Positions 8,791-13,052 of a DNA stretch of 64,000 nt are shown here, one piece after another; within the stretch, counting starts at the first letter, position 1, and each line of letters begins with the position of its first letter. The position numbers and the translations under genes were made by a program. This DNA is from Cyanobium sp. Tous-M-B4 (GTDB lineage Bacteria; Cyanobacteriota; Cyanobacteriia; PCC-6307; Cyanobiaceae). The notes beneath the pieces were generated by a model, which saw only the letters and a list, made by a program, of their open reading frames with translations, did not search any database and was not told the origin of the DNA. Location of the stretch: contig NZ_JAGQBA010000004.1 of NCBI RefSeq assembly GCF_024345395.1, positions 62,001 through 126,000 on the forward strand. Reading direction: 5' to 3'.

Positions 8791-9600
8791 TCAGCGCCGT
8801 CCGTTGACGATCACCGAGTTGCCGCTCCCCCCAGCAGTACCCGGCAGGGCAGGCACCACGGAGGTCTGGCCATCCCACTTGTCGAGGAAGAGCTTGTAGA
8901 GCACCTGGTCATCGAGGCTTGAGTTGAGCGTTTCGTAGCGCTTGGCTTCCTGCTCGGCGATCAAGACCTCGGTTTGGGCGCGCAACAGCTGCTGTTCAGC
9001 AATCTGCTTCTGTTCAATCGCGGCGCGGTATTCCTCGGCGATTTGCAGACCAGTGAGATCGAGTCCCTGCACGCTCACGTAGTCAAACTTACGCAGCTCC
9101 TCCGCCACCTTCTCCTGCACCAGTTCCGAAATGGAGTTCCATTCGGTGGCGATTGTCACCAGCTCGTATTGCGAAAAGACTGATTTGAGTGCCTTCAGTA
9201 GCGATGGCTGGATCACGCGGGGATAGATCTGCTGGTCGTCGGTAGCGATCGTCTCGTAAATCCGCCCCGCTTCTGCGGGCTTCATGGCGTATTTCACTGT
9301 GGCAGTGGCCTGGATCACCTGGAGATCCTTAGTGAGAGTCGAAAACTGCTCTGGTCGCACCTGGGTGCGTACGTCAAATAGCGAAGTGTTCTGCACCAGG
9401 GGGGCCTTGATGTTGGCGCCTGGGCTGCGGGGGGTACCGGTGACCTTGCCCAGGGTTGTGACTACGGCCACGTTGCCGGCCGGCACGATGAACACGGTTT
9501 GGCTGAGCAGAATCGCGATGCCCACCAATACGGCCGCAATCAGGCTGAGGGTTGCTCCAGGACCATCGGGACTGCCAGCTGAGCGAAGGGGCGACTGCAT
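8791..9600 (-). CDS. Prohibitin/SPFH (band 7) family membrane protein
   Basis: 269 residues from ATG 9600. One N-terminal transmembrane segment (about residues 15-37, SLIAAVLVGIAILLSQTVF) is followed by an SPFH domain beginning VPAGNVAVVTTLGKVTGTPRSPG, and then by a charged helical region (ISELVQEKVAEELRKF, AAIEQKQIAEQQLLRAQTEVLIAEQEAKRYE) that would form the coiled coil by which prohibitins assemble into rings. Cyanobacterial prohibitins lie in thylakoid or plasma membranes and often associate with FtsH proteases. The acid-free C-terminal tail SVIVNGRR is low-complexity. It is transcribed in the same direction as the racemase-like gene, with a 26-nt gap. Confidence 0.9.
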   Translation of the reverse strand: MQSPLRSAGSPDGPGATLSLIAAVLVGIAILLSQTVFIVPAGNVAVVTTLGKVTGTPRSPGANIKAPLVQNTSLFDVRTQVRPEQFSTLTKDLQVIQATATVKYAMKPAEAGRIYETIATDDQQIYPRVIQPSLLKALKSVFSQYELVTIATEWNSISELVQEKVAEELRKFDYVSVQGLDLTGLQIAEEYRAAIEQKQIAEQQLLRAQTEVLIAEQEAKRYETLNSSLDDQVLYKLFLDKWDGQTSVVPALPGTAGGSGNSVIVNGRR

Positions 9601-9626
9601 GAACGGGTCTGAACCAATTGCGAACC

Positions 9627-10706
9627 CTAGGCAGGTCCTCCGATGAAGCAACGGCTCACAAATGGAGATGTCATCGACCGCAGCAGGGTGCTGTAGCTGA
9701 TCTGGAAGCGCTGTTCATCGCCCGGCACTAACGCCTCTGCCGCTCCGCTCACCACCAAGTGGTCGCTGGATGCGCCCTCGATGCTGATCCCAGGGGCACT
9801 AAGACCGGCCGGGTCGGCATCCTGTTCGCCCAGGGCAAGTAGGGCTCGCATCGCCATGGCTTGGTCTGGTTGTTTTTGGGGAGCAACTGGCTCTTTGGCA
9901 AAACTGGTGCAGTGACGGGTTCCCCAGGCACGGCTTGGCTTGCGCTTGGACTCGATCACCTCTGCCACCAGGGTGATGGCATCTGTGTACAGCCCTGGTA
10001 TGGCTGTGCGGGTGAGGGGCTCTCGCCCCAGCAGTAGGGCCTCGCCGAGTCGCAGGTGGTTGATGCGGCCCGGATCGCCGCCACCAGTCAGCCAGGGAAG
10101 ATTGGCCGAATTACCTCCAGAGCACCACTCGAGCCTGATGCCAAAACGCCTTTCCAGGGAATCGATCAGACGCGATAGCTCGGCCATATTGGCTTCATCT
10201 GGGGCAACGCCGTTTTGACAGCCCAGATTGGTGCCGATGCCAACCAGCAGCAGGTTTGGCAGGGCCAGGGTTAGTAACACCATCGCCTCAAGATCTGCCG
10301 CGAGAATTCCCTCGCGCAGGTCCCCTAACTCCACCATCAGCAGCACTCCGTGGCGCACCCCCTGGCAATGGGCTGCAGCTGCCAAGGCCTTGAGCACCAC
10401 CGCCTCGCTGTTGCAGCTAACCGCCGCATGGGCCACTACCCGATCCACCTGGCTGAGCATCGGTGAGCGAACCAGCAGCAGGGGCACGCCAAGCTCGCAA
10501 CGGCTAAGCGATTCGATTGATTCGATTCGCGATTCACCGATGGAATGCACCCCTGCCGCCACCCAGGAGCGCACAATTTCTGGCAGTCCCAGGGTTGCCT
10601 TGCTGACCCCGGTCACCTTGATTCCTTGGCGGGCAAGCCGATTCACCATGGTGGTGGCGTTGTGCTGCAGGTGCTCGAGATGGATCTCAAGCCGCGGTGC
10701 GCTCAA
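9627..10706 (-). CDS. Alanine/ornithine racemase-family PLP enzyme
   Basis: 359-residue fold-type III (alanine racemase N-terminal) protein. The Schiff-base lysine is in VTGVSKAT at residue 36, and SGGNSANLPWL and HLRLGEALLLGRE supply the usual cofactor-phosphate and arginine contacts. The late segment EGASSDHLVV is a hallmark of the ornithine racemase-like (Orr/YhfX) subgroup rather than of Alr or the YggS group. An insertion rich in Lys, Gln and Ala lies around residues 250-290. It overlaps the upstream DgcN-like gene by 4 nt (ATGA), a sign of translational coupling. A role in D-amino acid handling is inferred; the substrate is not known. Confidence 0.75.
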   Translation of the reverse strand: MSAPRLEIHLEHLQHNATTMVNRLARQGIKVTGVSKATLGLPEIVRSWVAAGVHSIGESRIESIESLSRCELGVPLLLVRSPMLSQVDRVVAHAAVSCNSEAVVLKALAAAAHCQGVRHGVLLMVELGDLREGILAADLEAMVLLTLALPNLLLVGIGTNLGCQNGVAPDEANMAELSRLIDSLERRFGIRLEWCSGGNSANLPWLTGGGDPGRINHLRLGEALLLGREPLTRTAIPGLYTDAITLVAEVIESKRKPSRAWGTRHCTSFAKEPVAPQKQPDQAMAMRALLALGEQDADPAGLSAPGISIEGASSDHLVVSGAAEALVPGDEQRFQISYSTLLRSMTSPFVSRCFIGGPA

Positions 10707-11845
10707 AGCTTCCCGTCAGTTGATCCGCACAACTCGGGGAAAGCCCGCAGCACCATTGCCACCAGAGCAGAGGGTGCACGGCTCACCGCATCGGTGACAG
10801 GAATGGCGAGCTCGGCGGCATAGAGGGCGATTGCGGCACTTACCTCGGCGTCATCCATGCCCTCATGATTCAGGGTTAGGCCGATTACCCGCGTTGGCGC
10901 GAAGGATTCGATCAGGCGAATTTCACTGGCAGGCGTGGGCATCGGCATAAACGGAAAGTCGCTGAGCTGCCGGCGTGCTGGCGCGTGCTGCAGCACCACC
11001 GCTTGGGGCTGGCTGCCCCGCAGGATGAAGCCGGAAGAGAGGTAGGCGGGATGGCTGAGGGCCCCTTGGCCTTCAATCACGATCACCGCAGGTTTTTCCG
11101 TGCAGTAGGCCTCCACCACTGCGCCCTCCACCTCCCCTGAGCAAAACTGCGACGGAATTGCATCAAGAGGAATGCCATAGAGGCCCCCTTGAATTAATCC
11201 GGTTTGGCCCGTGCTCACCAAAACGGCGCGGATACCACTGGCGTTTAGGGCTTGAACCAGAAGCGTGGCCGTGGTGCGCTTACCGATAGCGCCATCGGTG
11301 CCGAGCACGGCGATTCGAATGCAGCGTGCCTTGGCGATCGAACCATTGAATAGGCGAAGATCCTTCAAAGAGGGTGGACGACGCACATCCCGAATTGACA
11401 CTTGATGACGAATAGCCGCCAGCGCAAATTCACTGTCGTCATTAAGGAATTCGCGCATGCCGCTGACCAGATTCAGGCCTGCTGCCATGGCCAGCAGCAG
11501 CGCTTGACGATCCTCTTTGCCATACAGGCCATCTGCAGGCGCCATGCCATAGATGAAGGTGCTGGCGCGGGGCCCTGGCAAGGCAAGGGCCTGTTCTAGA
11601 TCAGCCACGATGGGAATGCCGTTGCTGATGCCGTCTAGTAGCAGACCTGCATCATTCCCAGCTGATTGGCTGTCAATAATTGCTCTAATCTCGAAGGCTT
11701 CACAGAAGCGTACGAGTCCGTGGGCGGTTTTGCCGTCGAGCCCCGCGAAGTTTCCTTCGCAATAAACGACTGCAGCCGATTTTACCGCTACTTGATGCGG
11801 TGAAATCGAAATGGTCAGGTCATTGACCTGTTTTAGAAATGCCAA
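10703..11845 (-). CDS. DgcN-like (DUF1611) P-loop protein
   Basis: 380 residues. An N-terminal Rossmann-like part (SAAVVYCEGNFAGLDGKTAHGL...AIIDSQSAG) precedes a P-loop domain with GTDGAIGKRT at residues 182-191, VSTGQTGLIQGG, VVIEGQGALSHP-type switch segments and LTLNHEGM. This is the layout of DUF1611, the family of DgcN, reported as an N-acetyltransferase acting on D-glutamate together with the dipeptide-epimerase-like DgcA. Here the partner is not DgcA but an ornithine-racemase-like PLP enzyme, overlapped by 4 nt. The first 18 residues are of uncertain status. The reaction is inferred only from the family. Confidence 0.72.
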   Translation of the reverse strand: MAFLKQVNDLTISISPHQVAVKSAAVVYCEGNFAGLDGKTAHGLVRFCEAFEIRAIIDSQSAGNDAGLLLDGISNGIPIVADLEQALALPGPRASTFIYGMAPADGLYGKEDRQALLLAMAAGLNLVSGMREFLNDDSEFALAAIRHQVSIRDVRRPPSLKDLRLFNGSIAKARCIRIAVLGTDGAIGKRTTATLLVQALNASGIRAVLVSTGQTGLIQGGLYGIPLDAIPSQFCSGEVEGAVVEAYCTEKPAVIVIEGQGALSHPAYLSSGFILRGSQPQAVVLQHAPARRQLSDFPFMPMPTPASEIRLIESFAPTRVIGLTLNHEGMDDAEVSAAIALYAAELAIPVTDAVSRAPSALVAMVLRAFPELCGSTDGKL

Positions 11846-11938: not shown

Positions 11939-12958
11939 TCACCCTAGGGCGCTTTCTGCTTCTAGGGGGTCAGCCAGTATTTCGGCGATCTGGTTTTGGC
12001 CATTGCCCTGCGCCAGACATAGGGCCCGTTCGGCGCGAAGCAGGGCATCGACGGGATGGCGATCGGCGGGGGCCAGCAGGGTCATGCCGCCACTGGCCGT
12101 TAGCTGGTGGCCGCTGGCCGAAAAGGCTCCCCGCAGCTCGTTGATGCCAGCGCGGATGGCATCAGCCCGTTCCATGGCTGTGTCAGTGTCAACGTTCACC
12201 ATCAGCAGGGCGAATTCATGGTCGCCGATTTGACCTACAAGGTCCTGCTCGCATTGCTGGGAGCGCAGCAGGGCGGCAACGTCCATTACCGCCTGATCCG
12301 AGGCCTGCAGACCCCAGCGGTTTTTGATCTGGTCGAAGTGGTCGAGCTGCAGGGCCAGCACGGCCAGGTTTTCGCCTGCCTGGCGTGCCCGCAGTAGCTC
12401 AGGCTCAGCTTGCTCCAGGAAGTTTGCTCGGTTTGCTAGGGCGCTGACTGGATTCACCGTGGTGAGTCGACGCAGTTCAAGTTCACGCAGCACCAGCTGG
12501 GCCAGATCCTCGAGCAGTCGCACCTGGCTGGAGCTGAAGTGGCGCGGCAACCTGTCGATCACGCACAGGGTGCCGAGGTTGTGGCCGTCGCGACTCTGCA
12601 GCGGTGTGCCTGCGTAGAAGCGCACCTTTGGGTCTTGAATAACCAGGGGATTGGTGCAGAAACGTGGATCCTGGCGGGCATCTGGCACCACCAGGGTTTC
12701 ATCACCGGCAATGGCGTGGGCGCAAAAGGCCATCTTCCGCGGCGTTTCGGTGCTGTCTATGCCGTGGTGGGCAAGGAACCACTGGCGGTCGCCATCCACA
12801 AGCGAGATGAGCGCGATCGGGGTTTCCAGCACAGTCGAGGCGAGCCGCACCAGCCGCTCGAAATGCTCATCGCCTGGATGGTTAAGTACCCCCAAGCGCT
12901 CTAAATCCCTTTGGCGTTGGGATTCGTCCGCCGGAATCGGGTAATCGGGATACGGCAT
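11939..12958 (-). CDS. GAF protein with degenerate GGDEF domain
   Basis: 339 residues from ATG 12958; an ATG 22 codons upstream reaches almost to the divergent dehydratase gene. A GAF domain spans about residues 20-160 (MAFCAHAIAG, VPDARQDPRF and FYAGTPL are typical of the subgroup that precedes GGDEF/histidine kinase domains). A second domain, residues 165-335, follows the diguanylate cyclase pattern, but the opening motif reads NPVSALANRANF rather than DxLTGLxNRRxF, and the active-site loop reads GDHEF (245-249) instead of GGDEF. It is therefore probably not a working cyclase; it may sense or bind c-di-GMP or GTP, or be a regulatory relic. No membrane helix is seen. Confidence 0.8.
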   Translation of the reverse strand: MPYPDYPIPADESQRQRDLERLGVLNHPGDEHFERLVRLASTVLETPIALISLVDGDRQWFLAHHGIDSTETPRKMAFCAHAIAGDETLVVPDARQDPRFCTNPLVIQDPKVRFYAGTPLQSRDGHNLGTLCVIDRLPRHFSSSQVRLLEDLAQLVLRELELRRLTTVNPVSALANRANFLEQAEPELLRARQAGENLAVLALQLDHFDQIKNRWGLQASDQAVMDVAALLRSQQCEQDLVGQIGDHEFALLMVNVDTDTAMERADAIRAGINELRGAFSASGHQLTASGGMTLLAPADRHPVDALLRAERALCLAQGNGQNQIAEILADPLEAESALG

Positions 12959-13052
12959 GGACTGATCCGATAATGCCAATCCTAGGAAGTCTTCGGCGCG
13001 CCAACCGGGCTTCGCTAGGGCCATGATTTAGTTGTTGCCAACAGCACTTCCC

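Follow-up and report, generated by a model that had tools for sequence, protein, structure and literature searches.

What does a DUF1611 protein do when its gene is coupled to that of a PLP racemase? In the stretch of DNA analysed here (64,000 nucleotides of Cyanobium sp. Tous-M-B4, hereafter the window), an upstream DUF1611 gene overlaps by 4 nt the downstream gene for an Orr-type racemase (Table 1), both open reading frames being exactly as an initial annotation of this DNA had described them. The families themselves are known, as is the coupling of DUF1611 with DgcA, and the coupling of DUF1611 with a racemase is a distinct variant. The annotation had proposed the pair as a candidate undescribed module, and our search of the open literature found no description of it. 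We know of only one kind of DUF1611 member, DgcN, that has been assigned a reaction. DUF1611 is widespread, and the assigned reaction sits on a fold that resembles an ATP enzyme; that it partners either a racemase or an epimerase, and that one genome holds both of these mutually exclusive versions, makes its function a directly testable biochemical question.

Table 1. Positions in the window of the DUF1611-racemase pair, its motifs and the adjoining SPFH gene.
Feature	Position	Strand	Remarks
DUF1611 gene	10703..11845	-	380 aa; DUF1611_N Rossmann-like and DUF1611_C P-loop domains; remote DgcN relative
Walker A-like P-loop GTDGAIGKRT, DUF1611 residues 182-191	11273..11302	-	No variation at core positions in either DUF1611 subfamily
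EGQG motif, DUF1611 residues 258-261	11063..11074	-	Near-invariant
Stop/start overlap, 4 nt, TTGA	10703..10706	-	Kept at all same-family loci checked
Orr-type PLP fold-type III amino-acid racemase gene	9627..10706	-	359 aa
Lys36 of racemase	10599..10601	-	Invariant; expected PLP Schiff base
Variable loop holding the supposed K/Q-rich insertion	9852..9929	-	Low confidence, pLDDT 58-71
SSDH motif, racemase residues 313-316, C-terminal domain	9759..9770	-	Orr-family characteristic
SPFH/Band_7 gene	8791..9651	-	Directly 3' of racemase; recurrent neighbour of the module

The overlapping genes and their products

At each same-family locus that was checked, the overlap is retained together with a TTG or GTG start, and in more distant cyanobacteria the two genes are instead separated by a gap of roughly 4-24 nt. 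The probable ATG of the SPFH gene, at 9600, lies 26 nt past the racemase stop on the same strand, and this gene is possibly co-transcribed with the pair. No larger conserved operon was found around the pair at the window-family loci, 20 of 20 of which keep just the DUF1611 and racemase genes, and NtcA sites upstream of the DUF1611 gene were merely sporadic. Just 5' of the pair, on the same strand, lies a GAF-GGDEF gene (window 11939-13024) that is retained beside it in the same genus only.

The window DUF1611 protein passes the gathering score for both of its domains (PF07755, 214 bits, E=1.6e-63; PF17396, 75 bits). Against the DgcN equivalog (NF041892) it scores 142 bits, where the cut-off is 480 bits, and its partner belongs to PF01168, whereas this equivalog requires an adjacent DgcA of the enolase superfamily. 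The P-loop GTD..GK, TGQ, EGQG and H265/H287 are common to the racemase-paired and epimerase-paired branches of DUF1611; Q219, Q286, R291, E308 and H327, in contrast, are specific to the racemase-paired branch and differ in the other. The predicted structure (pLDDT 91) is closest among solved folds to the DUF1611 structures 2obn, 2g0t and 7xrj (titled N-acetyltransferase DgcN), followed by cyclic 2,3-DPG synthetase, MeaB, dethiobiotin synthetase (BioD) and HypB, which are P-loop enzymes that use ATP or GTP, and no GNAT fold was present among the 50 structure matches listed. As modelled, the fold is of the SIMIBI P-loop type. With BioD and cyclic 2,3-DPG synthetase the protein shares this fold type and the GTD..GK motif, but the resemblance is one of fold only (TM about 0.2-0.35 by query length), and DUF1611 has the extra N-terminal Rossmann-like domain. 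Its EGQG also resembles the motif EGxG found in dethiobiotin synthetase. DgcN, a distant relative of the window protein, is the only one for which acetyl transfer is known.

The racemase matches PF01168 (8e-23) and, over its full length, the Orr equivalog (NF040742), with 290 bits against a cut-off of 480 bits. Its AF2 model (pLDDT 91) has Alr as top PDB matches (TM about 0.75), and the similarity to alanine racemases, D-threonine aldolase and hydroxyaspartate aldolase extends across both domains; a PDB sequence search for an Orr structure gave no close match. K36 and R219 are invariant, and by transfer of roles from Alr we take them to be the PLP lysine and the pyridine-binding arginine. With these residues, a TIM barrel and a C-terminal beta domain, the predicted structure is that of an Alr-like fold-type III PLP racemase. 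The window protein shares its whole-length architecture and the SSDH motif, whose S314, D315 and H316 are retained also in an unpaired relative, with the Orr of amino-acid-fermenting Clostridia, but it belongs to a distinct, DUF1611-paired clade and has no ornithine-fermentation genes nearby. To our knowledge, assays have yet to be reported for any member of the paired subfamily. The lysine/glutamine-rich insertion that the annotation had singled out dissolved into a 4-residue length variation within an unconserved, low-confidence loop.

Pairing, co-inheritance and a parallel module

Is the coupling more than a local accident? A genome collection was scanned and the best 80 racemase loci were retained; in 77 of these a DUF1611 gene lies upstream on the same strand, in 76 directly adjacent at less than 200 bp. 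The 80 loci span about a dozen phyla (Cyanobacteriota, Nitrospinota, Planctomycetota, Pseudomonadota, Bacteroidota, Thermodesulfobacteriota, Bdellovibrionota, Acidobacteriota, Armatimonadota, Actinomycetota, Ignavibacteriota, Zixibacteria and Cloacimonadota, together with one Thermoplasmatota archaeon). Because many of the source genomes are MAGs, single phylum assignments may be binning errors, but the breadth over several phyla is confirmed by isolates and finished plasmids (Muricauda, Geothermobacter, Ruegeria, Phaeobacter and Vibrio). The pairwise distances of the DUF1611 proteins and of the racemases are closely correlated (r = 0.956 over 106 pairs; permutation maximum 0.07). In a tree of 73 rows, the paired racemases fall into one clade (support 99/98) that includes three unpaired members, and other Orr relatives, namely the Bacteroidota Orr and an arginase-fused type, lie outside it and are unpaired. 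The two genes are co-inherited and travel as a unit. The window racemase is nearest to Acidimicrobiia and Pseudomonadota forms, not to filamentous-cyanobacterial ones, which suggests transfer between phyla.

Of 201 genomes of the window family, 108 contain DUF1611 and 37 contain the racemase, and a DUF1611 gene adjoins the racemase gene at all 30 racemase loci fetched. The annotation had proposed a phylogenetic profile as a check, and the pair is indeed conserved together, both here and among the best 80 loci; its idea of a functional unit in amino-acid stereochemistry gains support from this pairing and co-inheritance, and joint function of DUF1611 and the racemase is well supported. Some copies are irregular: DUF1611 is broken into two frames at three loci (L016, L100 and L123), and one racemase match (L010) has an internal TGA, these being either decaying copies or assembly errors. 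At the remaining one of the 77 loci with an upstream DUF1611 gene (L097), an M20 peptidase gene lies between the two genes.

Could the racemase nevertheless simply serve the cell as alanine racemase, or else carry PLP, with its coupling to DUF1611 incidental? Its Alr-like fold-type III structure would agree with such a role, and the annotation had named a mere PLP carrier as an outcome that would refute its reading. A PLPBP/YggS carrier is a single-domain barrel of about 230 aa, whereas the window protein has 359 aa, a C-terminal Alr-fold domain and the expected lysine and arginine. A separate canonical Alr (PF00842) was present in 34 of 34 genomes tested, one in each, and because of this we conclude that the paired racemase is not the housekeeping alanine racemase; its candidacy as a replacement of Alr was rejected on the same count. 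Given also the pairing across phyla, we consider an incidental coupling extremely improbable.

The annotation had further supposed that the racemase replaces DgcA. This does not hold, because the same genome carries on another contig (L002) a second DUF1611 gene, which overlaps an enolase-superfamily gene of the dipeptide-epimerase/DgcA-like kind (155 bits with the DgcA model and 225 bits with the DgcN model, both below cut-off); the window pair is therefore a parallel, paralogous module. All 31 window-family DUF1611 loci examined have a partner, an epimerase at 18 (the genome's own copy included) and a racemase at 13, and none stands alone. The racemase-type and epimerase-type modules are thus parallel and mutually exclusive in partner.

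How does the window pair relate to the DgcN-DgcA pathway for D-glutamate? In the primary study, DgcN is said to be an acetyl-CoA-dependent D-Glu N-acetyltransferase. A PLP racemase requires a free alpha-amine, whereas DgcA-type enzymes require an N-acylated substrate. Both systems (EC 2.3.1.312 / 5.1.1.25 in the known pathway) couple an amino-acid stereo-enzyme to a DUF1611 protein with the same core motifs, but the partner in the window is a PLP racemase and DgcA is an enolase-type N-acyl-amino-acid racemase, so that the logic is opposite, one enzyme acting on the free amine and the other on the acylated substrate. Moreover, the window DUF1611 protein belongs to a separate subfamily, and a DgcN/DgcA-like pair coexists with it in the same genome. 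N-acyl substrates of enolase-type racemases have been listed (PMC8142540).

Peptidases and stress genes beside the pair

VanX-like M15 peptidase genes accompany 22 of the loci. A VanX/VanY-like gene lies 3' of the racemase gene on contigs of Bacteroidota, Zixibacteria, Cloacimonadota, KSB1 and Armatimonadota, and at three loci (L128, L129 and L167) a single open reading frame of 579-592 aa encodes the PLP racemase together with a D,D-dipeptidase domain of the VanX-like M15 type. Of the zinc-ligand motifs that are expected, SxHxxGGAxDA is present in nearly all 22 copies and EYWH in all of them; being fused to a PLP enzyme, the dipeptidase is probably cytosolic. One copy (L130) lies upstream on the opposite strand. 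Neither in cyanobacteria, the window genome included, nor in Pseudomonadota does the module contain M15; in the window family the phylogenetic profile of PF01427 (M15) is near universal and so uninformative. An M81 (MlrC-type) peptidase gene, mostly divergent, adjoins eight loci in Thermodesulfobacteriota and proteobacteria (e.g., L151:6707-8191).

The three clade racemases that have no DUF1611 partner occur with an amidohydrolase (L141), a Ddl-like ATP-grasp protein (L139) and an ornithine aminotransferase (L163). The amidohydrolase gene, 37 nt upstream of its racemase, may be read from its sequence as D-aminoacylase-like, though it is assigned only as an amidohydrolase. On a Shinella plasmid (L210:6001-7788), an Orr-type racemase is fused to an arginase-family domain and neighbours a D-amino acid dehydrogenase, RidA and 5-guanidino-2-oxopentanoate decarboxylase, which looks like an arginine racemase route; the long racemase reading frames of L229-L231 group with it in the tree. 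Together, the peptidases, the amidohydrolase and the ornithine- and arginine-linked genes suggest peptide-derived D-amino acids, which may be basic.

A further kind of neighbour is the SPFH gene (Band_7, HflK/HflC), found beside the pair in the window and also in Bacteroidota, another cyanobacterium, a gammaproteobacterium, Ruegeria and a Vibrio-like genome, a recurrence that includes Roseobacter and Vibrio plasmids. With loci clustered at 80% identity, 9 of 63 clusters have it at a distance of up to 6.5 kb and none at 6.5-13 kb, against about 0.9 expected within 6.5 kb at an assumed density of one per 800 kb (the window's own genome has two in 2.74 Mb). Within the window family, SPFH genes occur at 7 of 19 racemase-type and 0 of 18 epimerase-type loci (Fisher p = 0.008), four of the seven being the window and its close relatives. 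GroEL/GroES and Hsp20 genes lie near the pair on plasmids. We regard the link between SPFH/HflKC and the pair as suggestive. On a Vibrio coralliilyticus plasmid (L206:8899-12152), DUF1611 is followed directly by hflK-hflC, without a racemase.

A candidate D-amino-acid module and its alternatives

How might the two enzymes work together? As regards substrate, direction and the chemistry of DUF1611, we infer the following scheme. The PLP racemase would interconvert the D- and L-forms of an amino acid in its free state, which may be basic (ornithine, for instance), and the DUF1611 P-loop enzyme would modify the amino group of one enantiomer, either by acetyl-CoA-dependent acylation, the reaction reported for DgcN, or, in line with the fold, at the expense of ATP. 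This modification would be the irreversible step that turns a reversible racemisation into a one-way process. Because the racemase needs a free alpha-amine, racemisation would precede alpha-N-modification, or else DUF1611 would act on the side chain. The D-amino acid may come from the turnover of peptidoglycan or other D-peptides, and its supplier in several other phyla would be a VanX-like dipeptidase, cytosolic and encoded next to the racemase or fused to it. For such a self-contained module of a racemase and a DUF1611 trap, we favour salvage or detoxification as the likeliest role because of the peptidase partners and because the sister DUF1611 module has been reported to be catabolic, serving D-Glu use (PMC10845958; PMC11747546); we would give this reading somewhat less than an even chance. 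Simple salvage does not explain the stress and proteostasis neighbours (SPFH, GroEL and Hsp20), the predicted fold is a SIMIBI-type P-loop and not GNAT, cyanobacteria and Pseudomonadota have no M15 in the module, and the Ddl-like ligase at the DUF1611-less locus L139 fits synthesis as well as breakdown.

The last of these points leads to the opposite direction, in which the racemase makes a D-amino acid, DUF1611 builds from it, with ATP or acetyl-CoA, an envelope derivative or dipeptide, and M15 edits the competing D-Ala-D-Ala, as in the VanT-ligase-VanXY arrangement of vancomycin-resistance clusters. Some phyla do share with the VanT/VanXY-type D-Ser clusters a fold-type III racemase and an M15 D,D-dipeptidase, even fused, and such synthesis would accord with the Ddl-like ATP-grasp gene in the place of DUF1611, with the resemblance of DUF1611 to ATP-dependent BioD and cyclic 2,3-DPG synthetase, and with the position of the pair in plasmid stress islands. 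The module differs from those clusters in having DUF1611 instead of a Van ligase and regulators, and no M15 in the window genome. A ligase, however, occurs at one locus only, no conserved peptidoglycan-synthesis genes lie beside the pair in the window family, and the sister module is reported as catabolic, so that we consider biosynthesis a serious but rather unlikely alternative. We give the same weight to the alternative that DUF1611 is here a carboxylase, ligase or kinase driven by ATP and not an acyltransferase, its substrate being the amino acid that the racemase has acted on, e.g., ornithine or another diamino acid. The intact GTD..GK.T and EGQG motifs, the nearest non-DUF1611 folds, the five residues that set this branch apart from the epimerase-paired one, and the link of Orr relatives to basic amino acids would all agree with such chemistry, yet the relative 7xrj, titled an N-acetyltransferase, has the same core motifs.

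The pair might instead be an accessory of protein quality control, serving SPFH/FtsH-linked proteostasis by clearing D-amino acids or D-peptides of stress-damaged proteins. The SPFH excess over the expected count and over the epimerase-type loci, and the GroEL/GroES, Hsp20 and HflK/HflC genes on plasmids, are consistent with this, but SPFH is missing at most loci, its background rate is assumed, four of the seven family loci are closely related, and stress islands gather unrelated genes; we think this role improbable. A broader form of the D-amino-acid module, which we put forward tentatively, would be horizontally mobile and stress-linked, comprising DUF1611 and the Orr-clade racemase with, in places, a fused VanX-like dipeptidase and SPFH, DUF1611 proteins in general being locks, driven by ATP or acetyl-CoA, on the product of a racemase or epimerase. 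If so, DgcN-DgcA would have a second counterpart, based on PLP, in about a dozen phyla. Through this pair, picocyanobacteria and marine bacteria, as well as the plasmids of these organisms, may possess a D-amino-acid turnover route that has so far gone unrecognised, and the pair may have an unexpected link with SPFH/HflKC proteostasis genes.

Two further arrangements were observed. A Cyclobacteriaceae contig (L138:2647-6900) carries a racemase gene and an M15 gene flanked by two DUF1611 genes. Just 5' of the pair on Rhodobacterales plasmids lie three hypothetical genes, two of which have no Pfam match and the third only a weak EGF-like match on one plasmid (L202:7356-8849); their size and order are similar on the others (L201:7273-8782 and L203:7267-8841).
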